A program made the position numbers and the translations under genes. 64,000 bases of DNA, taken from contig JAIOPP010000094.1 of assembly GCA_021413845.1 (NCBI GenBank), positions 62,001-126,000 of the forward strand, written 5' to 3'. Origin of the DNA: Planctomycetia bacterium. GTDB taxonomy: Bacteria > Planctomycetota > Planctomycetia > Pirellulales > PNKZ01. The notes below the pieces were generated by a model. It was given only the letters and a program-made list of their open reading frames with translations, was not told where the DNA came from and searched no databases. Positions 27,527-52,335 of the stretch are shown in pieces; position 1 is the stretch's first letter; every line of letters starts with the position of its first letter.

Positions 27527-27934
27527 GGGGAATCCGGATCTGGGTAATAACGAGGCACGAACCGTCGCACGCTTGCCGAGCGGTGTCCGTAGTGAAACGT
27601 AGCTTGCAACAAGCGGGGAGCGAAAAAATTTGAGAACCTATTCCGACGCTTTCTTGCCGTTGCGAAAACAGGCCTCAAAACCGGCCCGATCGTTGCGAGC
27701 GAGCCGATTTCGCGTTCGTCTCCGTGCGTCGACGCTATATCGGCCTAGGTAATAAAGTCTCGAGGTGTCCGAGTTGCGAAATCCTAGATTCGCTCAAGTC
27801 TCCCGCGTCCGCCGGTCGATACGCCTGCCGAGGACGTCGTATTTCATGACGATTACGTCGACTCTGACGGAAACGCAGGCTGGGCCGTCGCTCATGCCGG
27901 CGTCGGGTCGCCGCTTGCAGGGAGTGCTCGCACG
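27527..27934. other. Divergent intergenic region between the PilZ gene and fliG
   Basis: No gene of its own is seen; a 185-codon frame beginning at 27765 runs out of frame into fliG and is a shadow. It holds a possible sigma-54 site (27683-27697) and an AGGGAG ribosome site before the fliG ATG. Confidence 0.4.
27683..27697 (+). promoter_or_regulatory. Possible sigma-54 promoter upstream of fliG
   Basis: GGCCCGATCGTTGCG: GG and GC are 12 bp apart and TTGC is exact, with one mismatch in GGCACG. It lies 238 bp before fliG, so the transcript would have a long leader. Confidence 0.3.
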
Positions 27935-28930
27935 ATGGCATCTACCGAAGTACGCAAAGCGGCCGTCTTATTGGCGAGCATGCCGGAAGAGGAAGCGGCA
28001 CTGCTTCTCTCCAAGCTGCATCCTAAGCAAGTCGAACTCGTCTCGATCGAGATTGCGCGGCTCGGCCATATCGGCGGCGAAGAGCAGTCGAACGCCATCC
28101 GTGAGTTCGCCGACGTCAATCCGCAATCGTTCGGCACCAGCACCGGCGGCCTCGACCTCGCGAAAAGCCTGGTCGAAAAGGCGCTCGGAAAAAACGCCAA
28201 TAGCACCCTCGAAAACGTCCGGCAGCAGATCGAAGCCCTGCCGTTCGCCTTCGTGCAGAAAATCGATGCGACGCACCTGCTCACGTTTATTATGGATGAG
28301 CATCCGCAAACGATTGCGCTGATCCTTTCGCATTTGCAGCCGCAAAAAGCCGCTCAGGTGATCGCCGGCCTCCCGAGCGATCGCCAATTGTCGGTCGTTC
28401 GCCGTATTGCGCGGATGGGCCAAACCAATCCGGAAATCATCCAAGAAGTCGAACGGGGACTCGAGCACCGCATGTCGAGCATCACGAGCCAGTCGTATGA
28501 AACGGCCGGCGGCGTGGAATCGGTCGCCGAGATCCTCAACGTCACCGATCGCGCGACCGAGCGTGGTTTGCTCGAGAACCTAGCCCAGGAAGATCCGGAC
28601 TTGGTCGAAGAAATTCGCCGCCGGATGTTCGTCTTCGACGATATCTCGAAGTTCGCCACGAAAGACATCCAAACGGTCCTCAAGAACGTCGAGAGCGGCC
28701 AATGGGCTTTGTCGCTCAAAACCGCGAGCGAAGAGCTCAAGCAGAAGATCCTCGGCAATATGTCGAGCCGTGCGGCGGAAATGCTCAAAGAGGAAATGGA
28801 TTACCTCGGCCCGGTCAAGCGCTCGGCCGTCGAGCAAATGCAGCAGCAAGTCGTCGATATCGTCCGCCGCTTGGAAGACGCGGGCGAAATCACGGTCGCC
28901 GCCGGCGAGGAAGTCGAAGAGATGGTTTAA
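27935..28930 (+). CDS. fliG: Flagellar motor switch protein FliG
   Basis: Rotor protein that couples the MS ring to the C ring and interacts with MotA. The 331 residues match the family. The N-terminal domain begins with VRKAAVLLASMPEEEAALLL, the middle domain carries the diagnostic EHPQTIALILSHL, and the C-terminal torque domain has the charged helix RRRMFVFDDISKFATKDIQ. It stands alone, about 4.8 kb before the main flagellar block and separated from it by mutS, a ComF-like gene and hemC. Confidence 0.96.
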   Translation: MASTEVRKAAVLLASMPEEEAALLLSKLHPKQVELVSIEIARLGHIGGEEQSNAIREFADVNPQSFGTSTGGLDLAKSLVEKALGKNANSTLENVRQQIEALPFAFVQKIDATHLLTFIMDEHPQTIALILSHLQPQKAAQVIAGLPSDRQLSVVRRIARMGQTNPEIIQEVERGLEHRMSSITSQSYETAGGVESVAEILNVTDRATERGLLENLAQEDPDLVEEIRRRMFVFDDISKFATKDIQTVLKNVESGQWALSLKTASEELKQKILGNMSSRAAEMLKEEMDYLGPVKRSAVEQMQQQVVDIVRRLEDAGEITVAAGEEVEEMV

Positions 28931-29025
28931 GCCCGGCGGCGCAAAGCGGGTGCGGTGGCTGGCGCTCGGTGGGATAATGCCGCCCCCTGGCCTCCCCCCC
29001 CGGTTTTCTGCTAGCATCGGACGCC

Positions 29026-31620
29026 ATGTCGACGTCCCCCATGATGCAGCAGTATTTCGATGCGAAAGCCGCCTGTCCGGGGGCCGTGCTGTTCTTTCGC
29101 ATGGGAGACTTCTACGAACTCTTCCACGACGACGCCAAGCTCGTCGCGCGGGTTCTCGGCCTCGCCCTGACGAGCCGCGACAAAGGGGAAAACCCCGTCC
29201 CCATGGCGGGCTTCCCCCATCATCAACTCGACGGCTACCTGCGCAAAATGATCGCGGCCGGCTACCGCGCCGCCGTCTGCGAGCAGATGGAAGATCCGAA
29301 GCAAGCGAAAGGGATCGTCAAACGCGAGGTGACGCGGATCGTCTCCCCCGGCACCGTGACCGACGACGCGCTGCTCGACCCGCGCGAGAGCAACTTCCTC
29401 GTCGCGATCGCCTCCGGCGAACCGGTCGGGGTCGCGTGGATCGATCTCTCGACCGGCCGCTTCTACGCCGCCGATGTTCCGTCGGGCCGGCTCGTCGACG
29501 AACTGGCGCGGATCGGTCCCGTTGAAATTCTGGCAGCCGAGGAAGCGGAACTTCCGCCGGGCTATGCCGATGGTCGGGTGCCGGTCACGCGCCGGCCGCC
29601 GTGGGCCTTTGCCCATCACTCTGCTCAAGAAACTCTCTGCAAACATTTTCAGACTCGCTCGCTCGAGGGCTTCGGCTTCCACGACGACGATAAGGCCGGC
29701 ATCCGCGCCGCCGGCGCGATCCTCGATTATCTGGCGGAAACGCAGAAGACGTCGCTCGGCCATATCGACAAGCTGATCCCGTATCGAACCGCCTCGACGC
29801 TCGAACTCGACGAAGCGACGCGCCGCAGTCTTGAGATTACCCGGAGCATGCGCGAAGGAAAGCGGGAAGGGACATTGCTCTCGGTGCTCGACCGCGCCGT
29901 CACGGCGATGGGCTCGCGTCAGTTGGGGGAGTGGACGAACAATCCTTTGGTCGACTTGAATGCGATCCAAGCGAGGCTCGATGCCGTCGGCGAACTCGTC
30001 GCTCACGAAGCCCTCACGACCGACCTCCGCGAGTTGCTCAAGCAAGTTTACGATGTGCAGCGCTTGCTCGCGCGCGTCAGCACCAATCGGGCCACGCCTC
30101 GCGATCTCTGTTTTCTCGGCCGGACGCTCCGAATTCTGCCGACGATCAAAGCGAAGCTGACGGCCCGATCGTCGGCGTTGCTCAACGCGATGGAAGGGGC
30201 GCTCGATCTCTGCGCCGAGCTTCGCGCGCTATTGGAAGGGGCCCTGGAAGACGATTGCCCGCTGGTTGCGAAAGAGGGGGGCTTCATCCGCGCCGGCTTT
30301 CATGCTCCCTTGGATGAATTCCGCGAGCTCGCCGGAGGCGGCAAGCAATGGATCGCGCGCTATCAAGCCGACGAAGCGGCCCGCGCGGAGATTCCGAGCC
30401 TGAAGGTCGGTTTTAATAGCGTGTTCGGATACTTCATCGAGGTGACGAACACGCATCGCGAAAAAGTTCCGGCCAATTACATCCGTAAGCAAACGGTGAA
30501 GAACGCCGAGCGTTACATCACGCCGGAGCTGAAAGAGTATGAAGAGAAGGTGCTCACGGCCGAGCAGCAGTCGCAAGACTTGGAATACGAGCTGTTCCTA
30601 AAACTACGCGATGCCGCGGCCGGTGCCTCGCGCCGGCTCATGGCGACGGCCGGAGTGCTCGCCGAAATCGACGCCCTCTGTTCGCTTGCCCAAACGGCAC
30701 GCGAGCGAGGCTATTGCCGGCCGAAGATCACGGAAGAACCTCGGTTGCGCATCGTCGCGGGGCGTCATCCCGTCTTGGATGCGTCGCTGCCGCAAGGCAA
30801 GTTCGTGCCGAACGACGTCGTGATGGGAGGAGCCGATGGGCTGATGATGCTCATCACCGGGCCGAACATGGCGGGCAAGAGCACGTATATCCGGCAGGCC
30901 GCGCTACTAACGCTGATGGCGCAGATCGGCAGCTTCGTGCCGGCGCGCGAGGCCGAGATCGGGATCGTCGACCGGATCTTCGCGCGTGTCGGAGCGAGCG
31001 ACGAGCTTTCGCGCGGCCAAAGTACGTTCATGGTCGAGATGACCGAGACGGCCAGAATACTGAACGGTGCCACCGCGCGCAGCTTAGTCATTCTCGATGA
31101 GATCGGCCGCGGCACCAGCACCTACGACGGCGTCTCGCTTGCTTGGGCCGTCGTGGAATATTTGCACGACAACATCGGTTGCCGCACGCTGTTCGCCACG
31201 CATTATCACGAGCTGACCGACCTGCGCGAGTCGTTGGCCGATGTGCGCAATCTGAATGTCGCCGTGCGTGAATGGCAGGACGAAGTCGTGTTCCTGCATA
31301 AGATCATCGAAGGGGCGGCCGATAAGAGCTACGGGATTCATGTTGCCCGACTGGCCGGAGTTCCTAGGCAAGTCCTCGATCGGGCCAAGCAAATCTTATC
31401 GCATCTAGAACAGGAGCATGTGGACGAAGAAGGGAAGTCGAAACTCTCGAAGCGCAACCGAGCGAAAGTTCGTAAGGGAGATCTCCAACTCACGCTTTTC
31501 GCCGCCGCCGATCATCCGTTGGTCGAGGAAATCCGCCGAGCCGACATCGACAACCTCTCGCCGATGGCCGCGTTGAACTTGCTGCGCGATTGGCAGAAAT
31601 CTTTAGATAGTTCACGCTGA
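29026..31620 (+). CDS. mutS: DNA mismatch repair protein MutS
   Basis: Mismatch-recognition ATPase of 864 residues, normal for MutS1. The mismatch-reading Phe and Glu are in FFRMGDFYELF near residue 24. The clamp and lever domains follow, with NSVFGYFIEVTNTH. The ABC-type ATPase has Walker A GPNMAGKST at residues 612-620, the SRGQSTFMVEM signature and Walker B SLVILDEIGRGTSTYDG. The C-terminus contains QLTLFAA, the usual tail motif. No mutL is in the window. Confidence 0.97.
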   Translation: MSTSPMMQQYFDAKAACPGAVLFFRMGDFYELFHDDAKLVARVLGLALTSRDKGENPVPMAGFPHHQLDGYLRKMIAAGYRAAVCEQMEDPKQAKGIVKREVTRIVSPGTVTDDALLDPRESNFLVAIASGEPVGVAWIDLSTGRFYAADVPSGRLVDELARIGPVEILAAEEAELPPGYADGRVPVTRRPPWAFAHHSAQETLCKHFQTRSLEGFGFHDDDKAGIRAAGAILDYLAETQKTSLGHIDKLIPYRTASTLELDEATRRSLEITRSMREGKREGTLLSVLDRAVTAMGSRQLGEWTNNPLVDLNAIQARLDAVGELVAHEALTTDLRELLKQVYDVQRLLARVSTNRATPRDLCFLGRTLRILPTIKAKLTARSSALLNAMEGALDLCAELRALLEGALEDDCPLVAKEGGFIRAGFHAPLDEFRELAGGGKQWIARYQADEAARAEIPSLKVGFNSVFGYFIEVTNTHREKVPANYIRKQTVKNAERYITPELKEYEEKVLTAEQQSQDLEYELFLKLRDAAAGASRRLMATAGVLAEIDALCSLAQTARERGYCRPKITEEPRLRIVAGRHPVLDASLPQGKFVPNDVVMGGADGLMMLITGPNMAGKSTYIRQAALLTLMAQIGSFVPAREAEIGIVDRIFARVGASDELSRGQSTFMVEMTETARILNGATARSLVILDEIGRGTSTYDGVSLAWAVVEYLHDNIGCRTLFATHYHELTDLRESLADVRNLNVAVREWQDEVVFLHKIIEGAADKSYGIHVARLAGVPRQVLDRAKQILSHLEQEHVDEEGKSKLSKRNRAKVRKGDLQLTLFAAADHPLVEEIRRADIDNLSPMAALNLLRDWQKSLDSSR

Positions 31621-39301: not shown

Positions 39302-41002
39302 ATGTCGCTATTCAGCAGCTTACAACTGGCGAGCAATGCGCTTCAGGCGCAGTCGATCGGCCTACAGGTCGTCGGCCAGAATATCGCCAACGTCAACACG
39401 CCCGGCTATAGCCGCGCGGAGTTGAATCTTACTCCTGCGGCCACGCAGCGAGTCGGCCGGCTGTTGCTCGGGCTCGGGGTCGATGTCGAGTCGATCAAGC
39501 AACGGATCGACGAGCATCTGAACGAGCGCCTCCGATCGGCCTCGGCCGATCGCGTCGGCGGTGATGTGCAACAGCAGGCGTATTCGCAACTCGAAGGAAT
39601 CATCAACGAACTGTCGGACACCGATCTCAGCACGTCGATGAACGCGTTTTTCGGCGCGATCTCGCAGGTGCTGAGTCAGCCGGCTTCGGTTTCCGTACGA
39701 AATCTCGCGGTGTTGCAGGGGCAGACGCTCGCCGGCGATATCAATCGCTTGGCCTCGCGCGCCACGGAAGTGCGCGACGATTTGAACGATCAAGTGATCG
39801 AGTTGGCGCCCGACGTGAACCGGCTGCTGACCCGCATCGCGGACTTCAACGTGAAGATCGCGACCGCGGAAGGAGGGGGCTCGCTCGGGAGCGATGCCGT
39901 CGGTTTGCGCGATCAGCGTAGCCAGGCTTTGGAGCAACTCTCGCAACTCATCGACGTGCAGACTCAGGAACAACCGAGTGGCGCGATCAACGTGTTCGCC
40001 GGCGGCGACTTTCTCGTCTTCGAAGGGGTCCATCGCCAAGTCAAAGTCGAGAATACCCAAGAAAACGGACTCAACGTCGCCAAGCTCTTGATCACGGAAA
40101 CCGATTCGCCGATCCAATCGGCATCGGGCAAGTTGGCCGGCTTGGTCGACGCTCGCGACAACATCATCGGGGGCTTTCTCGGCAAATTAAACGACTTCAC
40201 GAAGTCGTTGGCGTTCGAGTTCAACAAGGTGTTCTCGTCGGGGCAAGGGCTCAGCGGCTACAGCCAAGTTACCGCCGACCAACCGGTCTTGAACAAAGAC
40301 GTAGCGCTCGACGCGGCGGGGTTGGCGTATCGACCGGTCAGCGGCTCGTTCAACGTGCTCGTGCATGACAAGCAGACGAACCTGACGCACACGACGCGTA
40401 TCAACATCGACCTCAACGGACTCGACGACGACGACACCACGCTGACGAAACTCGCGGTCCAACTGAACGGCGTCGACGGTATCGCGGCATCGATCGATGC
40501 GAACGGGAAGCTAATCTTGAAGAGCCAGTCTCCCACGTCGGATTTCTCGTTCGGCGACGACACTTCCGGCGTCTTAGCGGCGCTTGGAATCAATACGTTC
40601 TTCACCGGCACGAGTGCCGCTACGCTCGGCATCAATGCCGTGGTGAAAAGCGATCCGTCGAAGTTCGCGGCCAGCCGTTCGGGCATCGACGGCGACACGG
40701 CAAACGCCGTCGATTTGGCGAACTTCAGCGATCGACTGCTCGATTCGGCCAATGGCCGGTCGATCTCGCAATACTACGAACAGCTCGTCGGTGACGTGAC
40801 GCAAGGCTCCGCGGTCGCGAAATCGGTGGCGACCGGGTTTCAGACGTTCGAAGACACGTTGCGCGGACAGCAGCTGGCCGTGAGCGGTGTGAATATCGAC
40901 GAAGAGACGATCTCGATGCTCGGTTATCAGCGTGCTTATCAAGCCTCGGCTCGCTTCATCAAAACTATCGACGACCTGTTGAACCTGCTCAGCAACTTAT
41001 AG
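39302..41002 (+). CDS. flgK: Flagellar hook-associated protein 1 FlgK
   Basis: Hook-filament junction protein of 566 residues. The N-terminal SLQLASNALQAQSIGLQVVG with QNIANVNTPGYSRAEL is diagnostic, as is the C-terminal VSGVNIDEETISMLGYQRAY with QASARFIKTIDDLLNLL. The middle (about 300-480) is a variable surface domain. The ATG at 39302 places the conserved helix at the very N-terminus; an upstream in-frame start at 39260 is less likely. Confidence 0.95.
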   Translation: MSLFSSLQLASNALQAQSIGLQVVGQNIANVNTPGYSRAELNLTPAATQRVGRLLLGLGVDVESIKQRIDEHLNERLRSASADRVGGDVQQQAYSQLEGIINELSDTDLSTSMNAFFGAISQVLSQPASVSVRNLAVLQGQTLAGDINRLASRATEVRDDLNDQVIELAPDVNRLLTRIADFNVKIATAEGGGSLGSDAVGLRDQRSQALEQLSQLIDVQTQEQPSGAINVFAGGDFLVFEGVHRQVKVENTQENGLNVAKLLITETDSPIQSASGKLAGLVDARDNIIGGFLGKLNDFTKSLAFEFNKVFSSGQGLSGYSQVTADQPVLNKDVALDAAGLAYRPVSGSFNVLVHDKQTNLTHTTRINIDLNGLDDDDTTLTKLAVQLNGVDGIAASIDANGKLILKSQSPTSDFSFGDDTSGVLAALGINTFFTGTSAATLGINAVVKSDPSKFAASRSGIDGDTANAVDLANFSDRLLDSANGRSISQYYEQLVGDVTQGSAVAKSVATGFQTFEDTLRGQQLAVSGVNIDEETISMLGYQRAYQASARFIKTIDDLLNLLSNL

Positions 41003-41063: not shown

Positions 41064-44000
41064 ATGTGTGCCATCAGTTCCACACCCACCTCGCGACTCA
41101 GTAACGCGTACATCTCTGCGCAGATCTTAGCGCAGATCCAGACGAATCAGGCGAACCTGTTCACGGTTCAGCAGCAGTTGGCGAGCGGTCGTCGGGTGTT
41201 GGCGCCGAGCGACGATGCGCAAGCCGCTGCCCGCGCGATCACGCTGCAAAGCTTGTTGGAGCGCAAAGACACGGTTTCGTCGAGCCTGAGCACGAATCAA
41301 TCGTATCTGAGCGCGTCGGACGATGCGCTCGGCAGCGTTGCCGATATGTTGAGCGAGTTGCGTGCCACGGCTCTGTCGGTAACGGGCAATAACGTCAGCT
41401 CGCAGGAACGACAAGCCGCGCTCGCCGAGGTCGATCAAGCGGTCAGCCGGCTATTGGTTACGGCCAACCAGACGTTTCGCGATCGTTATTTATTCGCAGG
41501 TTCTCAGGCATTATCGGCGCCCTTTCAGCGAACCACGAACGGCATCGCGTACGTCGGCAACGATAATAGCTTGTCGGCCCTCTCCGACATCAATCAGCTT
41601 TTTTCCACGAACGTGACGGGAAATCAAGCTTTCGGGGCGTTTTCGCAAGCCGTGCTCGGCATCGCCGATCTAAACCCCGTGGTCACGCGAGATACGCGGC
41701 TCGTCGATCTCAATGGCGGCGCCGGAGTGAGAACCGGAAGCATCAAAGTTTCCGACGGCACGAAGACCAGCGTCGTCAACATCGCCGGCGCGGCGACGTT
41801 GGGAGACGTGGCTCGCTTGCTCGAATCGAATCCTCCTCCCGGCCGAACCCTGACGGCACGCGTCACGAACGAAGGGTTGCAAATTACGTTGAGCGGCGGC
41901 AACCTGACCATCGATGAAGTCGGCGGCGGTACGACCGCGGTTTCGTTAGGGATCAAACGCACGCTGGGGACGGGGGCAGGTCCGTTCGTCGGGGCTGATT
42001 TGAGCCCGCGCCTTTCTCTCGTTACGCCGGTTCGCGATATCTTGGGCACTCGCGCCCAAGGGTATGTGACGGCGACCGGCGCGAACAACGATCTGCTCAT
42101 CGAAGCCAATCGGTCGGGTGCCGACTTCAACGGCGTGAAGGTCAAATACGTCGACGACAATTGGTTCCAGGCCGATCCGGGAATCACCTCCGGTAACGAG
42201 TTCGCGCAGTATCTGACGACGCCGACGAACGCTTCCGCGGTGCTCAAGTTCCCCGGCCGGCCGGGGGTCGATAACGGAATTCAACTGACGGCAGTGACGG
42301 CCGGAACCGCATACAACGGCGTTGCCGCGTCGGTGCAGGTTCGTGCGATCGATGGTCTCGGCACGCAAACGACTTACGATGCGAACGCGAAGACTTATGT
42401 GATCTCGGTGGAAACGGGAACGACGGTCGGGGCGGCGTTGTCGGCGATTAACACCGGCGGCGGCCCCTTCACGGCGACGACCACTTCCTACGGCAGCGGT
42501 TCGTATGTGTTGACCGCGGCCGACACCGGCGGCGCGGGAAACACCTACGCGACGGCAAGCGATGCCTCGACTTTGGTCGTGCATATCCAAGCGGGCAAAA
42601 CGACGGCGAATCAAGCCGCCGCTGCAATCAACGCCGAGGGAACGTTCAGCGCGAAATCCGATCCGAGCGAAGCAGGAAACGGCAAGGGAACGTTGCTCGA
42701 CTCCTATAGCGATACCACGGCCGTGGCGACGATGAGCGGCGGCTCCGGTGAGAATCTCGACTTACAGCACGGCTTGCAGATCGTGAACGGCGGGCAAACC
42801 TTCACGATCGATCTGAGCAATGCGACGACCGTCGAAGATGTGCTGAACGCCGTCAACGGTTCCGGCGCGCAAGTCTTGGCTTCGTTGAATGCGACCGGAA
42901 CCGGAATCGATATCCGTTCGCGTCTGAGCGGCTCGAAGTTCTCGATCGGTGAGAACGGCGGCACCCTGGCGACGCAACTCGGCGTTCGTACCTCGACCAC
43001 TTCGACGGCGCTCAACTCCTTGAACAACGGCAAAGGGGTCGATGTCGCCACGGTCGGAGACGACTTCGCGATCTCCAGCCGCGATGGCACGACCTACAAC
43101 GTCAACCTGACGAACGGAAATGCGGCCGCGGGGCGGGTCGCAGGAGTCGGTGCGAATAGTGCGTTGCTGTTTAGTCGCGTGGCGCCGGGTCTGAGCGGAA
43201 ATCAATTCAGCGTCCAGATCGTCGACAGCGGCACGGGCGGCGGCAACACCGTCTCACTCGTCGGGAACACGTTGCGGTACGATGTCGATCTCGCGGCCGG
43301 CTTCACGGCCCAACAAGCGAGCGACTTGCTGTCGCAAAACGCGACTTTGAGCGCCCAGTTCGCCGTCCGTCTCGACAAATCGAGCGACAATACGAACGAC
43401 GGGAGCGGGAACCTTGCCGCTACGGGCGTCGTGGCGTTCGACGGTGGGAAAGACGTGGCACGCACGATCGGCGACGTGCTCGATCTGATCAACAACAACG
43501 CCGCCAATCGGGCGAGCAGTGCGCCGGTCGTGGCAAAATTGGCCGACTTCGGCAATGGGATCTCGCTCTTAAACGACGGGCCGTTGGGATCAGCGACCTT
43601 TTCGATCACCCGGCTCGGCACCAGCTCCGCCGCGCAAGATCTCGGGCTGATCCCCAATAGCGACACGACGAACAGCTCGGCGGTGGTCGGCACTCCGGCA
43701 TCGATCGCGATCGCGTCGGCCGGCTCGAACAACAATCTGATTATTTCGTCGGCCCAAAGCGGGGCGTCGCTCAACGGCGTAACTGTGCGGTTTGCGGACG
43801 ACGGCGTGAGCGGCAACAATTCCGCGAGCTACAACGCCTCGACGCGCGTCCTCACGCTCGACGTCGACCCCGCGACGACGACGGCGCAAGACATCGTCGA
43901 TCTGTTGGCCGGCGACCCACGCTTCCGCGCTTCGCTTGCCCCGACGGACGGAGGCGTGACCAACAACGGCTCCGGCACGCTGGGAACCTTGCCCGCCGAT

Positions 44001-44393
44001 GCGATTCTGGCGGGGGGAACCGCGGACGTTCTCACGGGCATCGATAGCAACTTGCAACAGGTCGACGGCGTGTTTACGTCGCTGATGCAATTGCGCGCTG
44101 CGATCCAAAGCGGCAACCTCGATCAGTTGCAGAGTGCGATCGGCGTGCTGGATGCTTCGGCCGATAAACTTGGGTATTCGCGTGCCGATCTCGGAGCGCG
44201 GATGAAAGCGATCGATGCTCTGCAGAGCCGCGTTTCGCTCGAGAGCATCTCGCTGAAGAGCGCGGTCTCGACGGAAATCGAAGTCGACGTCGTCGGCGCG
44301 ATTTCGGAAATGGCGACGCGACAAGCGGCGTACGAAGCTTCGTTGCGGGTCTCGGCGGCGATGACCAAGTCGACATTATTGGATTTTCTTTAG
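41064..44393 (+). CDS. flgL: Very large flagellar hook-associated protein 3 FlgL
   Basis: A 1109-residue flagellin-like junction protein; FlgL is usually 300-500 residues. The N-terminus (SNAYISAQILAQIQTNQANL, then QQQLASGRRVLAPSDDAQAA) and C-terminus (ALQSRVSLESISLKSAVSTE, then MATRQAAYEASLRVSAAMTK) are FlgL-like. The 850-residue insert contains Flagellin_IN-type modules, for example LVDLNGGAGVRTGSIKVSDG with GDVARLL near residues 212-295 and FTIDLSNATTVEDVLNAVNG near 580-600, plus several Thr/Ser/Gly-rich beta segments. The same module type recurs in FliD, suggesting a decorated hook-filament junction and cap. Confidence 0.93.
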   Translation: MCAISSTPTSRLSNAYISAQILAQIQTNQANLFTVQQQLASGRRVLAPSDDAQAAARAITLQSLLERKDTVSSSLSTNQSYLSASDDALGSVADMLSELRATALSVTGNNVSSQERQAALAEVDQAVSRLLVTANQTFRDRYLFAGSQALSAPFQRTTNGIAYVGNDNSLSALSDINQLFSTNVTGNQAFGAFSQAVLGIADLNPVVTRDTRLVDLNGGAGVRTGSIKVSDGTKTSVVNIAGAATLGDVARLLESNPPPGRTLTARVTNEGLQITLSGGNLTIDEVGGGTTAVSLGIKRTLGTGAGPFVGADLSPRLSLVTPVRDILGTRAQGYVTATGANNDLLIEANRSGADFNGVKVKYVDDNWFQADPGITSGNEFAQYLTTPTNASAVLKFPGRPGVDNGIQLTAVTAGTAYNGVAASVQVRAIDGLGTQTTYDANAKTYVISVETGTTVGAALSAINTGGGPFTATTTSYGSGSYVLTAADTGGAGNTYATASDASTLVVHIQAGKTTANQAAAAINAEGTFSAKSDPSEAGNGKGTLLDSYSDTTAVATMSGGSGENLDLQHGLQIVNGGQTFTIDLSNATTVEDVLNAVNGSGAQVLASLNATGTGIDIRSRLSGSKFSIGENGGTLATQLGVRTSTTSTALNSLNNGKGVDVATVGDDFAISSRDGTTYNVNLTNGNAAAGRVAGVGANSALLFSRVAPGLSGNQFSVQIVDSGTGGGNTVSLVGNTLRYDVDLAAGFTAQQASDLLSQNATLSAQFAVRLDKSSDNTNDGSGNLAATGVVAFDGGKDVARTIGDVLDLINNNAANRASSAPVVAKLADFGNGISLLNDGPLGSATFSITRLGTSSAAQDLGLIPNSDTTNSSAVVGTPASIAIASAGSNNNLIISSAQSGASLNGVTVRFADDGVSGNNSASYNASTRVLTLDVDPATTTAQDIVDLLAGDPRFRASLAPTDGGVTNNGSGTLGTLPADAILAGGTADVLTGIDSNLQQVDGVFTSLMQLRAAIQSGNLDQLQSAIGVLDASADKLGYSRADLGARMKAIDALQSRVSLESISLKSAVSTEIEVDVVGAISEMATRQAAYEASLRVSAAMTKSTLLDFL

Positions 44394-44572: not shown

Positions 44573-45016
44573 ATGATGCAAATTCGCACGACCCGATTCG
44601 GCACTCTGACGGTGGAACCGGAAGATATTCTGACGTTTCGGACCGGCTTCGTCGGACTGGAAGATTGCCGGCAATGGATTCTCTTGGCCGATGCTTCGAA
44701 CGAGGCGCTCGGCTGGTTGCAATGCACGACGCGCTCGGAGACCGCCTTGGCGGTCGTGAGCCCGCGTCGATTCGTACCCGACTACCGATTTCGGACGTTT
44801 CGCAGCGAAATGGCCTCGATCGATCTGGTCAACATGGAAGAGTCGCAGGTGTTGGTGACGGTCTCGCGGCATGACGGAAGCTTGACGTTGAACTTGAAGG
44901 CACCGATCGTGATCAATGTGCGCACGCGCCATGGTCGCCAGGTCGTGGCGAACGACGATCATCCGTTGCAATACCTACTGCCCGCAGCGCCGTCGCTTTT
45001 GAAGAAGAGTGCATAA
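44573..45016 (+). CDS. fliW: Flagellar assembly factor FliW
   Basis: A 147-residue beta-barrel protein that binds both flagellin and CsrA. TRFGTLTVEPEDILTFRTGF and VGLEDCRQWILL are typical, with the later NLKAPIVINVRTRHGRQVV and the ending DHPLQYLL. It has a GGAGG ribosome site eight bases before the ATG at 44573. In the Bacillus/Campylobacter model, free FliW sequesters CsrA until flagellin accumulates; the neighbouring csrA and downstream flagellin fit that circuit. Confidence 0.95.
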   Translation: MMQIRTTRFGTLTVEPEDILTFRTGFVGLEDCRQWILLADASNEALGWLQCTTRSETALAVVSPRRFVPDYRFRTFRSEMASIDLVNMEESQVLVTVSRHDGSLTLNLKAPIVINVRTRHGRQVVANDDHPLQYLLPAAPSLLKKSA

Positions 45017-45159: not shown

Positions 45160-45387
45160 ATGCTTGTGCTTTCGAGACAACGCGACGAGAGCATCATCAT
45201 CGGTGATAACATCGTTATCACGATCGTCGATATACGTGGAGATAAGGTACGGCTTGGTATCAACGCGCCGACCGAGATCACCGTGCATCGGCAAGAGGTC
45301 TACGAGGCGATCCAACGCGAAAACCTTCGCGCCAGTCGTCTTGAGCCCAAGGATGCCCGCAACGTCGGTCGAACCGACGTAAAATAG
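45160..45387 (+). CDS. csrA: Carbon storage regulator CsrA
   Basis: A 75-residue RNA-binding translational regulator. The N-terminal [20 protein letters not shown] and the RNA-contacting [20 protein letters not shown] are conserved. It usually blocks ribosome sites containing GGA. Its own ribosome site reads AGGAAGGAG (45145-45153), with two GGA triplets, so autoregulation is possible. It lies between fliW and the flagellin, the standard FliW-CsrA-Hag arrangement. Confidence 0.97.
45362..45380 (+). other. Hairpin at the csrA 3' end
   Basis: ACGTCGGT, loop CGA, ACCGACGT: a perfect 8-bp stem inside the last csrA codons, followed by AAAATAG. There is no T tract, so termination is doubtful; an mRNA 3'-end or processing role is possible. 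Confidence 0.3.
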
Positions 45388-46074: not shown

Positions 46075-46205
46075 ATGACGCGCATTAACACGAATCTCAG
46101 TTCGCTCACAGCGCAGCACAGTTTGCAGCGTGCGAACGACTCGTTGGGGACGGCGTTGACGCGTCTCTCCACGGGCTTACGAATCAACAGCGGTAAGATG
46201 CTGCG

Positions 46206-49031
46206 TTGGGCGAAGTGAGCTCGCTGCTCTCCGACGTCCGTACGCTCGTGCAATCGTCGGCGAATAAGGGTGCGGTCTCCGCAGCCGAAATCGCGGCGAA
46301 TCAAGTTCAAGTCGATAACGCTCTCGACGCGATCACTCGTATCTCGCAGACCACGGTCTTCGCCGGGCAGAAACTGCTCAACGGCTCGAAGAGCTTCTCG
46401 GTCTCGGGTAGCTTGGGCTCGTTCAACAGCCCGACCGACATCACGATCAACTCGTTCGATCCATCGCTCCACACCGCGAGCGCCGCGAACGACGTTGCCT
46501 TGAACGTCACGCAAGAAGCCACGAAGAAATCGGTCAGCTTCAAGGGCACCGACTTCAACACCGGCGCCGCAGGCAGCTTGCTCGACCTCTCGGTCGGCAC
46601 CTCGACCCGCACGACGACCACGGTCGTCACGAACGACTTCGATCTCTCGACCGCGACGAGCAGCTTGAACTCGCTGTCGACCGGTTCGACGAAGTTCAGC
46701 CGCGTGATCGAAGGTGGGGCGACCGGCTTTGCCGATTTGAACGGCACCAGTGCGAACACCATTACGTTCGACGTCACGGGCAACCTCGGCACGCAATCCA
46801 TCTCGGTCAACGTCGCTGACGCTAAGGCCGACACGTCGGTCTTGACCACGGCGATCAACGCCGTCGCGTCCCAAACGGGTGTCATCGCGTCGGGCTCCGG
46901 TGCCGGTGGCGATCTCACCTTGACGACGAGTCGTGTCGGTACGACTTCGACGATTGCCACTTTGAATGCCACCGCCGGAAGCTACGCCGGTACGATCTCG
47001 ACCGCTTCGATCGAGGGCTCGGGCTTCACGGCCATCGCCGCCGCCGCCGCCGAAACGATTACCTTCGATATCACGGGTAACCTCGGTACTCACTCGATTT
47101 CGGTCTCGGCCGCCGCTTTGAAGGCCAATAGCACTGCCTTGCAGACGGCGATCAACGCATGGACCGGTTCGACCGGCGTGACTGCCTCTACGGCCGGCGG
47201 TGCGGGTGCCGACATCAGCTTAACCAACAGCGCCGTCGGTAACACGGCGATCGCGATCTCCAACGTCGGCGGTACTGCGGTTGCGGGCGATCAAACGATC
47301 TTCAGCACCGGTGTCTCGACCGGTACCAACACGGCCGGCACGAACACCGACGTCGCGGAATTCAACGCCGCGATCAGCGGTTCGACGGCCAGCGCCGCCG
47401 GTAGCAACGGTGCGTTGAGCACGAAGACCACCGTGTTCACGATCACCGGCAACAAGGGCAGCGCGACGGTTTCGACCGCCGCTCTCTCCGCCGGTGGCCT
47501 CACCGGTAACGACGTGATCATCAACAACAACTTCACCGGCAATGCGGGCATCACCGCCTTCGCCGACTTGATCAACACCCGTACCGATAGCACGGGCGTC
47601 GTGGCGACGGTCAGCAACACCGGTAACTTGGTGCTCACGTCGCAAGGGATCGGCAGCACTTCGACCGCCGGCCTTTCGGTTGCGGCCTCGGGTGCCGATC
47701 AAACGTTGCTCAACAACGCCGGCACCAAGTCGACGGTCACCGGTCAAGACGGCACGTCGAACACGACGACGCTCGAACTCATCGGCGACCTCGGTCGTGC
47801 GGTGATCACGTTCAACAACGATGCCGTCATCAACGATTCGACGGCCTTGAAGAACGCGATCAACAGCGTGAGCACGCAAACCGGGCTCACCGCGACCGGC
47901 TCCGGTTTCGGTGCCGACGTGAAACTGAGTGCTTCCAAGTTCGGTAGTGCCGGTGTCGTGACGATCAACGCCTTGGCTGCGTCGAACTCGTCCGATATCT
48001 CGCTGCTCAACAATGCGGCATCGCGTACCGTCGTCGCCGGGAAGGACGCCGCGGGTACGATCTCGACCTCGGCTTCGACCGGTTCCTTCACCGCGATCGG
48101 CGAAAAGATCAGCTATACCGACAGCTCGATCAGCCTCGACGCTCAAGTCGATCCGACGCTCACCCCGTCGGTCACCGCGACGACGACGTTGAAGTTTGCC
48201 GCGACCGGCTCGGGTGGTTTGGGCAACTTGACCGGCACCGGAACCGACACCATCAGCTTCACGCTGACCGGCGTCGTCAACGGTTCGCAAGTTACGACCT
48301 CGATCACCGGCGTCAACGCTGCCGCCCTCAAGGGCGACAGCCGCGTCTTGGTCGACCTCATCAACAAGAGCAGCACGACTTCGGGTGTAACCGCCACGAC
48401 GACGGGAGCGACCGGAGACATCGTGTTGAGTTCGACGACCGCCGGCAGCAGCGGGGCCGTGAGCATCATCGCTTCGGCTGCGACGCAAGCCGCCGACGTG
48501 ACCGCGTTCAACAACTCGGGAACCTACACGGCGACCGTCGCCGGTGCGAACCCGAACGTGTCGAACAGCTTCGATGTGACCGGTGGTGCCTTGTTCCAAA
48601 TCGGCCCTTCCGTCAACTACGCGAACCAAGTGAATATCAACATCACTTCGCTCGACCTAGAGACGCTCGGACGGGATTACACGACGACGGGGAACAAGGG
48701 CCTGTCGTCCTTGCGAACCGGCGGAACCGATTCGCTCGACAAGGCCGATCTGTCCGACGCCGCTTCGCTCGTCGAACAAGCGATCAGCCAAGTCGCTACG
48801 CTCCGCGGTAAGCTCGGTGCGGTGCAGAAGAACGCGATCGACAGCAACATCCGCAGCTTGCAAACGTCGCTCGAACAAGTGACGTCGGCTCAGAGCAGCA
48901 TCCGCGATGCGGACTTCGCTCAAGAAACCGCCGCTCTCACGCGGTCGCAGATTTTGGTTCAAGCCGGTACTAATGTGCTGGCTCTGTCGAACCAAGCTCC
49001 GCAAAGCGTGTTGTCGCTGCTCGGACGTTAA
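46206..49031 (+). CDS. Flagellin 3' portion with five tandem repeat domains
   Basis: Open frame of 941 codons beginning at a TTG that is probably not a real start. Residues 1-60 are flagellin ND1 (ALDAITRISQTTVFAGQKLL appears here as DAITRISQTTVFAGQKLLNG). Residues ~185-780 hold five ~100-residue repeats built as TITFDVTGNLGTQSISV, then a TAIN helix and TGV-A-GSGAG-DL-LT. The C-terminus has the canonical QVATLRGKLGAVQKNAIDSN and IRDADFAQETAALTRSQILV with QAGTNVLALSNQ. It would make an exceptionally thick or decorated filament. It carries no Cys or Trp-rich segments apart from one Trp in repeat 2. Confidence 0.7.
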   Translation: MGEVSSLLSDVRTLVQSSANKGAVSAAEIAANQVQVDNALDAITRISQTTVFAGQKLLNGSKSFSVSGSLGSFNSPTDITINSFDPSLHTASAANDVALNVTQEATKKSVSFKGTDFNTGAAGSLLDLSVGTSTRTTTTVVTNDFDLSTATSSLNSLSTGSTKFSRVIEGGATGFADLNGTSANTITFDVTGNLGTQSISVNVADAKADTSVLTTAINAVASQTGVIASGSGAGGDLTLTTSRVGTTSTIATLNATAGSYAGTISTASIEGSGFTAIAAAAAETITFDITGNLGTHSISVSAAALKANSTALQTAINAWTGSTGVTASTAGGAGADISLTNSAVGNTAIAISNVGGTAVAGDQTIFSTGVSTGTNTAGTNTDVAEFNAAISGSTASAAGSNGALSTKTTVFTITGNKGSATVSTAALSAGGLTGNDVIINNNFTGNAGITAFADLINTRTDSTGVVATVSNTGNLVLTSQGIGSTSTAGLSVAASGADQTLLNNAGTKSTVTGQDGTSNTTTLELIGDLGRAVITFNNDAVINDSTALKNAINSVSTQTGLTATGSGFGADVKLSASKFGSAGVVTINALAASNSSDISLLNNAASRTVVAGKDAAGTISTSASTGSFTAIGEKISYTDSSISLDAQVDPTLTPSVTATTTLKFAATGSGGLGNLTGTGTDTISFTLTGVVNGSQVTTSITGVNAAALKGDSRVLVDLINKSSTTSGVTATTTGATGDIVLSSTTAGSSGAVSIIASAATQAADVTAFNNSGTYTATVAGANPNVSNSFDVTGGALFQIGPSVNYANQVNINITSLDLETLGRDYTTTGNKGLSSLRTGGTDSLDKADLSDAASLVEQAISQVATLRGKLGAVQKNAIDSNIRSLQTSLEQVTSAQSSIRDADFAQETAALTRSQILVQAGTNVLALSNQAPQSVLSLLGR
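46758..48546 (+). repeat. Five tandem ~100-codon repeats in the flagellin variable region
   Basis: Units begin at about 46758, 47055, 47427, 47766 and 48246. Each opens with a TI(T)F-x-TG-NLG strand, then a short (S/T)ALKxAIN helix, then TGV-A with GADI-LT and a final Gly/Ala-rich strand. They are diverged at the DNA level, so they are old duplications. Confidence 0.7.
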
Positions 49032-49181: not shown

Positions 49182-51839
49182 ATGCGTGTGATCGCGGTCG
49201 AGAAGCAGCCGGTGACGTTGCTGACCAGCGATCTTACGAACCGCAAAAGTCAGCAGGCCGCTTATACCGGAATCTCGGCGAGCCTGGTTTCGCTCTCGTT
49301 GTCGGTAGCTCAGTTCGGCAAGGCGAGCGTGCTGAATTCGCGCGTCGCGTCGAGCTCCAACTCGGCGGCGCTCCAAGCCACCGCGACCTCGGCGGCGGTC
49401 GTCGGCTCATATAGCTTTCGGCCCGTGAGGCTTGCTCAGAGCCAGCGGTTCACTTCGGCCGGTTACAGCGACGCCACGACCGCTGCGGTCGGCGCCGGGA
49501 CGATCTCGGTCAAGCGCGGCGGCTTCGTCGATACGGACGTCTCCCTCGATGCGCTCAACGGCGGGGCGGGAGTCGCACGCGGAAAGATCCGCATTATCGA
49601 TCGGAGCGGAATCGCCGCGGTCGTCGATCTGAGCGCCACGCAATCGATCGGCGACGTCGTGCGGGCGATCAACGAAAACGGCGTGGCCGCCGTCACCGCT
49701 TCATTGCAAGGCGATTCCTTGGTCATCACCGACCAATCGGGCCAAACGACGGCGAACCTCACGATCCAAGAAATCGGCGGCGGCAAGACCGCGACCGATC
49801 TCGGAATCGCCGGTTCGTTCAATGCTTCGCAAAAAATCGGCAGCGACATCGTCAAGCTCGGGCCCGATACGAAGCTTTCGACGCTCAACGACGGGCTCGG
49901 GGTTCGACGTAGCGGCAGCCAAGATGATTTTCGCATCGCGTTGAAAGACGGCACGACCGTCGACGTCAACATTTCGACGACCAAGACCATTCAAGATGTG
50001 CTGACCGCGATCAACGGCGACAGCGAAAACTCCGGCAAAGTGACCGCTGCGATCAGCGCCGACGGCGACAAGCTCGTGCTGACGGACAACACCGGCGGTG
50101 GGGGTACGCTGTCGGTAAGCGAACGAAACGGCAGCAAGGCCGCGCGCGATCTCGGAATCCTCGGCACGGAACAAGCCGGCGGCGTGCTTACGGGAACCCG
50201 CACGCTCGCCGGTCTCGGCTCCGTGCTCGTCAAGAATCTCAACGGCGGCCAGGGGGTTGCGACTCCCGGCTCGATTCAGCTCACCGATCGTAGCGGAGCG
50301 ACGGCGACCGTCGCTCTCTCGACGGCCCAGAGCCTGAGCGAAGTCGTTACGGCGATCAACGGCGCAGGCCTAGGAATCAAAGCCGCGATCAATACCCAAG
50401 GGCACGGCCTCACGATCTCCGACACGACCGGCTTGTCGGCATCCAACCTAATCATCGCCGATGTCGGAGGGGGAACCTCCGCGACCGATCTACATATCGC
50501 GGGCGACGTCGCACTGGCGAGTATAAAGACCGGCGATCTCCATGCCGCCTACATCAACGACAACACGGCGCTGTCCGGTCTTAACGGCGGCGCGGGAATT
50601 TCCGCCGGCCAGTTTAAGATCACGGACAAGTCCGGCACTTCGACGGTCCTCAATATCTCGGGAACCTCGTATAAGACGATCGGCGACGTGATCCTCGGCA
50701 TCAATGCCGGGGCCGCGGATGTGACGGCGTCGTTGAACGCAACCGGCGACGGAATCCTCTTGACCGACAATTCCGTCGGCAGCGGATCGCTGAGCGTTAC
50801 CGATTTGCTGGGCGGCAAGACCGCGGCCGACTTGCATCTGCGCGGAACCGGGACCCCCACGATCGACGGCGCGTTCGTCGACAAGATCACGATCGATGCC
50901 GACGACACCCTCAACGACGTCGTGCAAAAGATCGGTGCGGGAAGCGCGCCGATCTCAGCCTCCGTCTTCAATACGGGGGGATCCGAAGGTTACAAACTCC
51001 TCGTCGGTACGAAGCAGGGGGGAGCGGCCGGACGGGTCGTCATCGACTCCGGAACGACGGGGCTCAACCTCACGCAGTCGCAAAGCGGGCTCGACGCCGT
51101 GTTGCAATTGAGCGGCAACGGTTCTTCGCCGGTCGTGTTTTCGTCGTCGTCGAACACGTTTACCTCGGTCGTCGCCGGGGTGTCGATCGACATCACGGCC
51201 GCTTCGGCCTCGAACGTTACGGTCAACGTTACGGAGAACGGCGACTCGCTCGTGGCCGCGATCAACAACTTCGTGACCGGCTACAACTCGATCTCGAGCA
51301 ATCTTAAAGACCAGACCAGCTTCGATTCGGAGACGACCACGGCCGGCTTGCTCCAAGGAGATCAGGTCGCCGTCGGCTTGCGTTCGATGCTGCAAGATCT
51401 CGCGGGCCGGCGCTACGGCGGCGGCTCCATCAACAATTTGACGCAAATCGGCCTCAAGCTTACCGGGGGGCAGCTCACGTTCGACGAATCCGTGTTGCGT
51501 GCCAAGCTGGCATCCGACCCTGACGGCGTGAAAGACTTTTTCGGCTCGACGGATACCGGTGTAGCCGCCGCCGTCGGCAAGTCGATCAAGAGCTACGTCG
51601 ACGCAGCGAACGGAATTCTGTTCCATAAGATCGATGCACTCGATGCGCAGCAAACCTCGCTCCAGTCGCGGATCGACGATTTGAACGTGCTCATCGAGAG
51701 CAAACGAACTCGCTTAGCGAATCAGTTTCTCTTGTTGGAAAAGACTCTGGCGACGTTGAAGTCGCAACAAAACTCCTTGGCGAGTCTCACGAGTTCCAGT
51801 AGCTCCAGCAACTCCAGTTCTTCGAGTTCCAGCTCGTAA
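49182..51839 (+). CDS. fliD: Flagellar filament cap FliD, shortened N-terminus
   Basis: An 885-residue cap protein. It begins RVIAVEKQPVTLLTSDLTNR, which in other FliD proteins lies about 25 residues in; an in-frame TAA at 49149-49151 prevents a longer start, so the first D0 helix residues are missing. Four Flagellin_IN-like modules span about residues 121-210, 231-328, 349-440 and 462-556, each with LNGGxGV, a SIGDVVxAIN helix and GGGxxATDLGI. The FliD C-terminal domain follows: AAINNFVTGYNSISSNLKDQ, LKLTGGQLTFDESVLRAKL and a coiled coil. It ends in a run of about 15 Ser/Asn residues. Confidence 0.9.
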   Translation: MRVIAVEKQPVTLLTSDLTNRKSQQAAYTGISASLVSLSLSVAQFGKASVLNSRVASSSNSAALQATATSAAVVGSYSFRPVRLAQSQRFTSAGYSDATTAAVGAGTISVKRGGFVDTDVSLDALNGGAGVARGKIRIIDRSGIAAVVDLSATQSIGDVVRAINENGVAAVTASLQGDSLVITDQSGQTTANLTIQEIGGGKTATDLGIAGSFNASQKIGSDIVKLGPDTKLSTLNDGLGVRRSGSQDDFRIALKDGTTVDVNISTTKTIQDVLTAINGDSENSGKVTAAISADGDKLVLTDNTGGGGTLSVSERNGSKAARDLGILGTEQAGGVLTGTRTLAGLGSVLVKNLNGGQGVATPGSIQLTDRSGATATVALSTAQSLSEVVTAINGAGLGIKAAINTQGHGLTISDTTGLSASNLIIADVGGGTSATDLHIAGDVALASIKTGDLHAAYINDNTALSGLNGGAGISAGQFKITDKSGTSTVLNISGTSYKTIGDVILGINAGAADVTASLNATGDGILLTDNSVGSGSLSVTDLLGGKTAADLHLRGTGTPTIDGAFVDKITIDADDTLNDVVQKIGAGSAPISASVFNTGGSEGYKLLVGTKQGGAAGRVVIDSGTTGLNLTQSQSGLDAVLQLSGNGSSPVVFSSSSNTFTSVVAGVSIDITAASASNVTVNVTENGDSLVAAINNFVTGYNSISSNLKDQTSFDSETTTAGLLQGDQVAVGLRSMLQDLAGRRYGGGSINNLTQIGLKLTGGQLTFDESVLRAKLASDPDGVKDFFGSTDTGVAAAVGKSIKSYVDAANGILFHKIDALDAQQTSLQSRIDDLNVLIESKRTRLANQFLLLEKTLATLKSQQNSLASLTSSSSSSNSSSSSSSS

Positions 51840-51879: not shown

Positions 51880-52335
51880 ATGTCGCACACCGCCGGCAAC
51901 ACCTATTTCGAAAACCAGGTTCAAACGGCGTCGCCGCAAAAGCTGCACTGGATGCTCGTCGACGCGGCGTTGCGCGACGCCCGGCGTGCGGAAGAGTCTC
52001 TGTTGAAGAACTCTCCCATTCAAGCCAGCGCGGATCTCGCTCATGCCGAAGCGATCATCGCCGAGATTCTGTGTGCCATGCGCCGCGATTTGGCGCCGGA
52101 GCTGGTGGACAAGTGCCAAGCCATTTACGGCTTCATCTTGCGATCGCTCTCCGATGCGCATCTGAAAGACGATCTCGGAGCGCTGCAAGGGGCCATTCGC
52201 GTGCTGGCGGTCGAACACGAAACCTGGCGCATGGCGGTAGAAAACGCCGCCGCTAAAAAGCCGAGCAGCGCGCCGGCGCCCCATCTTGCTTTCGATTCGA
52301 GTGCCGTCTCCAGCGGCTTCTCGTTCGAGGCCTAG
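51880..52335 (+). CDS. fliS: Flagellar export chaperone FliS
   Basis: A 151-residue four-helix protein that keeps flagellin monomeric before export. The conserved opening NTYFENQVQTASPQKLHWML and the amphipathic helices (AHAEAIIAEILCAMRR, VDKCQAIYGFILRSLSDAHL) fit FliS. A Ser/Ala/Pro-rich tail of about 25 residues is extra. It is the last gene of the flagellar block, 40 bp after fliD. Confidence 0.9.
   Translation: MSHTAGNTYFENQVQTASPQKLHWMLVDAALRDARRAEESLLKNSPIQASADLAHAEAIIAEILCAMRRDLAPELVDKCQAIYGFILRSLSDAHLKDDLGALQGAIRVLAVEHETWRMAVENAAAKKPSSAPAPHLAFDSSAVSSGFSFEA

Follow-up and report, generated by a model that had tools for sequence, protein, structure and literature searches.

Inactivated or lost flagellar genes are known in non-motile lineages. 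As far as the titles and abstract openings of the papers go, convergent loss of flagella-related genes has been described in Pseudomonadota (PMC13063649), and in Chlamydia pneumoniae the orthologues of FliI, FlhA, and FliF are treated as remnants of flagellar export in a bacterium without a flagellum (PMC2830194). Here, we analyzed a stretch of 64,000 nucleotides, referred to as the window, from the genome of a Planctomycetia bacterium of the order Pirellulales (G000). To the extent that the openings of these papers allow comparison, the locus resembles the losses in Pseudomonadota and other non-motile lineages (PMC13063649) in that structural flagellar genes are broken or lost in related lineages, and it differs in its planctomycete host and in that the lesions, which appear young, affect the two filament genes of an otherwise unbroken cluster. 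The likeness to C. pneumoniae, within the same limits (PMC2830194), is that FlhA occurs without flagellin in a congener (G003) and in further relatives; unlike C. pneumoniae, the window genome has the other cluster genes, and G003 keeps a canonical fliG. In the titles and abstract openings returned by a literature search, we found no report of the fliC/fliD locus described here, and no paper in that search joined Pirellul-, flagell- and FlhA.

Flagellin and cap genes of the window

The flagellin loci of the window genome were aligned with those of two congeneric genomes, G001 (loci L030 and L037) and G002 (loci L031 and L036). The positions of the features are given in Table 1.

Table 1. Features of the flagellar cluster, in positions of the window.
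Feature	Position	Strand	Remarks
fliG	27788..28930 (stop-to-stop frame)	+	All three FliG Pfam domains; orthologue kept in G003
flgK	39302..41002	+	Whole length aligned with G002
flgL	41064..44393	+	Whole length aligned with G001 and G002
fliW	44576..45013	+	Whole length aligned with congeners
csrA	45160..45387	+	Whole length aligned with congeners
fliC, 5′ fragment	46075..46218	+	41 flagellin residues (46075-46197), 6 frameshifted residues, and TGA; Flagellin_N 1-38 of 139
fliC, deletion joint	46196..46198	+	109 bp absent relative to G001/G002, right after GGTAA (46192-46196); one G assignable to either side
fliC, remainder	46197..49031	+	944 codons in the other frame; Flagellin_C; 73.6-74.5% identity to congeners G001/G002
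fliD	49182..51839	+	Inferred original start and 22 N-terminal residues absent; FliD_N match begins only at profile position 13
fliD, second deletion joint	49187..49189	+	~93 bp (5′ leader and 22 codons) absent relative to G002
fliS	51880..52335	+	Residue 7 to end aligned with G001 (48% identity); FliS 2-114 of 115

The window fliC is divided between two reading frames. The frame opened by the ATG at 46075 codes for 47 amino acids, of which residues 4-41 correspond to positions 1-38 of the Flagellin_N profile, and it is closed by the TGA at 46216-46218. The downstream frame (46197-49031) carries a Flagellin_C match near its end. A second Flagellin_N match in this remainder was drawn back across the joint, with one stop inside at the joint; the point at which the match begins, profile position 60, is therefore inexact. 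The alignment with G001 and G002 revealed that 109 bp (36 codons and one base) are absent from the window gene. In terms of the G001 flagellin, the window gene retains residues 1-41 and 78-1024 and lacks residues 42-77. Since one base beyond the 36 codons is also missing, the frame is broken. The same site is open in one frame in G001 and G002, and in G006, which belongs to the same family, so that intact orthologues exist in close relatives. The stretch missing from the window is present in all 15 relatives that were readable at this position among the 30 examined. Moreover, one gene in two frames on one contig with Flagellin_N was observed in G000 only, among 57 genomes searched. The uninterrupted frame in the congeners and the splitting in this genome alone argue that the break is not due to chance. 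The order fliW-csrA-fliC-fliD is also found in G001 and G002, which, together with the identity of the remainder, identifies the gene as FliC. With Flagellin_N in two frames and 36 residues missing, Flagellin_N and Flagellin_C do not lie in one frame, and the gene as assembled is a flagellin pseudogene, not an intact flagellin.

The first-pass annotation had described a flagellin N-terminus that starts at 46075, stops at 46216, and resumes in another frame, and this was confirmed by the reading frames, the profiles, and the congener alignment. Its view that a deletion with frameshift explains the break, leaving the filament gene dead as assembled, also holds. The size it gave for the gap, about 120 bp or 40 residues, has to be replaced by the 109 bp and 36 residues measured against the congeners. 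The variable part of fliC (window 46758-47866) contains diverged direct repeats, with three 104-nt copies of which the other two are 71% and 61% like the first, and Flagellin_IN motifs occur in both fliC and fliD.

The adjacent cap gene, fliD, carries a second lesion, which the first reading had not noticed: the start codon and the first 22 residues are absent. The window fliD opens with MR-VIAVEKQP, and 22 residues stand ahead of the equivalent of V3 in G001, G002, and G006, whose starts are inferred. FliD_N is matched from position 13 of 97. The leader aligns with G002 to 49187 and the coding sequence resumes at 49189, with 93 bp of G002 in between. The fliC and fliD lesions are thus of similar size (109 and ~93 bp) and lie 3 kb apart. 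Eleven other flagellar genes (flgF, flgG, flgA, flgH, flgI, flgN, flgK, flgL, fliW, csrA, and fliS) align end to end or nearly so with a congener, the weakest alignments being those of flgA (residues 7-335 of 367) and fliS (48% identity). As assembled, the genes for the filament subunit and the cap are both damaged, and the rest of the cluster is unbroken. Between fliG and the flg genes lies mutS (window 28978-31617), in which all five MutS domains are present.

We consider it reasonably probable that these lesions are genuine and reflect a recent inactivation of the filament module (fliC and fliD) by an ordinary pseudogene event. An out-of-frame deletion of 109 bp in the sole flagellin gene found would have left a 47-residue peptide and a headless remainder of 944 codons, and a second short deletion would have deprived fliD of its start and N-terminal segment. 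The role of the D0/D1 core in the flagellin filament is well established. With a piece of the N-terminal half of this core missing and the frame disrupted, a filament would not be buildable, and the window strain probably builds none, unless the assembly is in error. That the split fliC still works, either by a -1 frameshift at GGT AAG or by an internal start at TTG 46206 giving a shortened flagellin, is scarcely credible. A -1 slip at AAG would indeed read into the open downstream frame, and this frame is conserved. However, the 36 N-terminal core residues, which the congeners and all the readable relatives possess, would still be absent, and the cap gene is damaged too. To our knowledge, GGTAAGA is no classic slippery heptamer, which also counts against a working frameshift.

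The fliC joint and the search for a donor

The first-pass annotation had suggested that the deletion arose by recombination between GATGCTGCG-like runs. In the congeners, the borders of the segment absent from the window have 1 bp (G) in common at the observed joint. Pairing of the aspartate codons would delete 108 bp in frame; to reach the observed 109, an additional base would have to be lost. Direct repeats of at least 8 bp and spaced by about 109 were looked for around the site in G001 and G002, and none bracketing it was found. On these three grounds, repeat-mediated recombination is unsupported, with the congeners' sequence serving as a proxy from which the ancestral sequence of the window species may differ. 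In the window itself, no repeat bracketing the joint was found among the 20 of 30 repeat families listed. Hairpin-driven slippage was also considered and rejected, as the folding of the congener DNA over the two sites was either marginally better than that of shuffled sequences (z -1.59, 12 of 200 as good) or similar to it (z 0.06).

The window genome comprises 7.08 Mb in 167 contigs and is 99.6% complete. Searching it with Flagellin_N gave three matches, namely flgL and the two pieces of fliC, and Flagellin_C matched fliC, with flgL below the cut-off. The search for a second flagellin, proposed in the first reading, therefore revealed none besides flgL in the assembled genome. Equally, no copy of the missing fliC stretch was found there with a 261-base congener query spanning the gap: the known downstream part was recovered at E 7e-22, and the remaining 39 of the 40 scored matches were short, with E values of 0.003 or weaker. 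G000, G001, G002, and G005 each have one flagellin besides flgL, and both halves of the window fliC are nearest to the same relatives. On this basis, a collapse of paralogous flagellins during assembly, one of the options raised at first, was rejected.

The other option was phase variation, that is, a recombinational flagellin switch reversible from a silent copy. Flagellins do vary by phase or recombination in some bacteria. In the present case, the assembled genome yielded neither a second flagellin nor a donor sequence for the deleted part, and no direct repeat brackets the segment, either in the intact genes of the congeners or among the window repeat families listed. We regard such switching as very improbable.

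Age of the lesions and state of the assembly

Lineage-specific amino-acid changes were counted at sites where the outgroups G005 and G010 agree. In the case of the fliC remainder, 24 changes were specific to G000 and 33 to G002 at 464 sites (26 and 33 with G001 as the congener), and the N-terminal 41 residues gave 0 versus 1 at 30 sites. For fliD, the counts were 40 versus 35 of 386 with G002 and 39 versus 44 of 433 with G001. Other genes spanned the range from 28 versus 13 of 254 (a phosphoribosyltransferase-like gene, with outgroup G005 only) to 15 versus 26 of 296 (flgK). The balance of fliD with G002 is somewhat above those of flgK and flgL and lies within the range of the other genes. No clear excess of amino-acid change in fliC or fliD, and no sign of long decay or of relaxed constraint after inactivation, was seen in these comparisons of G000-only with congener-only counts. 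This indicates that the lesions are either recent or artefactual.

If real, the lesions would thus be young. The alternative is a locus-specific artefact of assembly or strain mixture, in which fliC and fliD are whole in all or most of the cells and two pieces of about 100 bp are missing from the contig alone; we hold this to be rather unlikely, although it deserves serious weight. The perfectly kept frames outside the lesions and the lack of clear excess change are as compatible with an artefact as with a young mutation, and two lesions of 109 and ~93 bp that lie 3 kb apart could have a common technical cause. Both gaps are close to short-read length. In addition, the related records are metagenome-assembled genomes, so the window genome may be one too. 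On the other side, the fliC joint shares only about 1 bp, and a de Bruijn path would presumably need reads carrying the joint. No repeat that could explain a collapse was found at the fliC site, nor did a leftover fragment carrying the missing part of fliC turn up in the rest of the assembly.

The frames of two gene families in the same genome also speak against an artefact. All 73 PSD1 matches in G000 were without an internal stop, and five split-match pairs each lay in one open frame; seven of the 73 covered the profile partly, two of them at contig edges. The best 91 of 119 DUF1501 matches, covering at least positions 1-365 of 390, were likewise free of internal stops. These controls reveal frame breaks and are blind to deletions that keep the frame and to missing starts. 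Among the window genes, Pfam domains were nearly whole in polyphosphate kinase, CitG, PTPS, MutS, DNA glycosylase, and dCTP deaminase, and partly matched in FlgH (21-172 of 172) and the phosphoribosyltransferase-like gene. A screen for frame breaks flagged 22 of 74 queries, most of them antisense or off-frame shadows as judged by coordinates alone; read in this way, fliC would be the only gene broken in its own frame among the 74. A synteny control against G003 was poor, with only 11 and 6 orthologues, of which two of the 11 were flagged (one of 10 and one of six in the reverse direction). These two, a DNA glycosylase gene and a gene for 907 amino acids, were rejected as lesions, as the stop or second frame lies upstream of their own starts.

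Judged by its reading frames, the assembly shows no general breakage. A single assembly of the species was used, and reading frames are given as assembled; a search for a second assembly found none, the genome contigs giving three relatives (records of the own genome may be excluded) and the viral contigs none. The occurrence of lesions in two partner genes argues for a biological cause.

Flagellin-less relatives and the flhA locus

Flagellin_N was matched in 38 of the 57 genomes and FliD_C also in 38, and a comparison of both tables showed that the same 19 genomes lack both. One of the 19 is G003, a member of the same genus with 99% completeness. The genome-wide searches of G003 covered Flagellin_N, FliD_C, FlgK_D1, FHIPEP, and FliG_C; the first three gave no match, and matches to fliG (FliG_C) and flhA (FHIPEP) are kept. 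Its fliG orthologue is canonical, with 86% identity. The genes flanking the window flagellar block (contig C94 of G000, 83.6-122 kb) lie on contig C10 of G003, about 147 kb apart, and none of the 13 block genes from flgF to fliS, nor mutS, was matched in the 655 kb examined of the ~6.9 Mb of G003. If the inactivation in the window is real, it may represent an early stage of a filament loss that is further advanced in G003.

The flhA gene of G003 is accompanied by genes for an SRP54-type GTPase, a ParA-type ATPase, and a sigma factor. A sigma-70-family gene that is 76-88% identical to the one of G003 was observed near FlhA in the 17 other flagellin-less genomes with a FlhA match (loci L072 and L134-L150, including G003). 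A second, divergent FliG_C-like gene (~23-82 bits) is present in many genomes, for example at G000:C124:15086-15400, and in at least nine cases it lies on the flhA contig, about 10-50 kb away.

FHIPEP (FlhA) was matched in 55 of the 57 genomes. Of the 19 flagellin-less genomes, 18 have a match, with much lower scores in several. In G054, the two FlhA matches are in different open frames, which suggests that this flhA is broken. The FlhA tree was built from 39 rows, comprising all 18 flagellin-less ones and 21 of the 37 others. It requires five changes of the flagellin label, at least four of which are forced by well-supported branches. In G003, the FlhA branch measures 0.048, against 0.066 in the flagellated sister G001, and thus shows no acceleration. 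Many other flagellin-less rows have long branches, with lengths of up to 1.29, and this argues against FlhA having kept the same function in them. A broader reading, in which the filament genes were lost more than once in the order while the flhA locus and the sigma-factor gene were kept for a filament-independent job of FlhA, with the window genome early in this transition, is speculative, and we consider it doubtful.

Taken alone, the lesions in fliC and fliD are ordinary gene decay, a known kind of event. If real, they would offer a snapshot of flagellar loss, with the filament and cap genes broken and the rest unbroken, beside a congener, G003, in which no filament, cap, or hook-junction genes were found. 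The persistence of flhA in 18 of the 19 flagellin-less relatives, split in one of them, poses a better and testable question than the loss of fliC and fliD.
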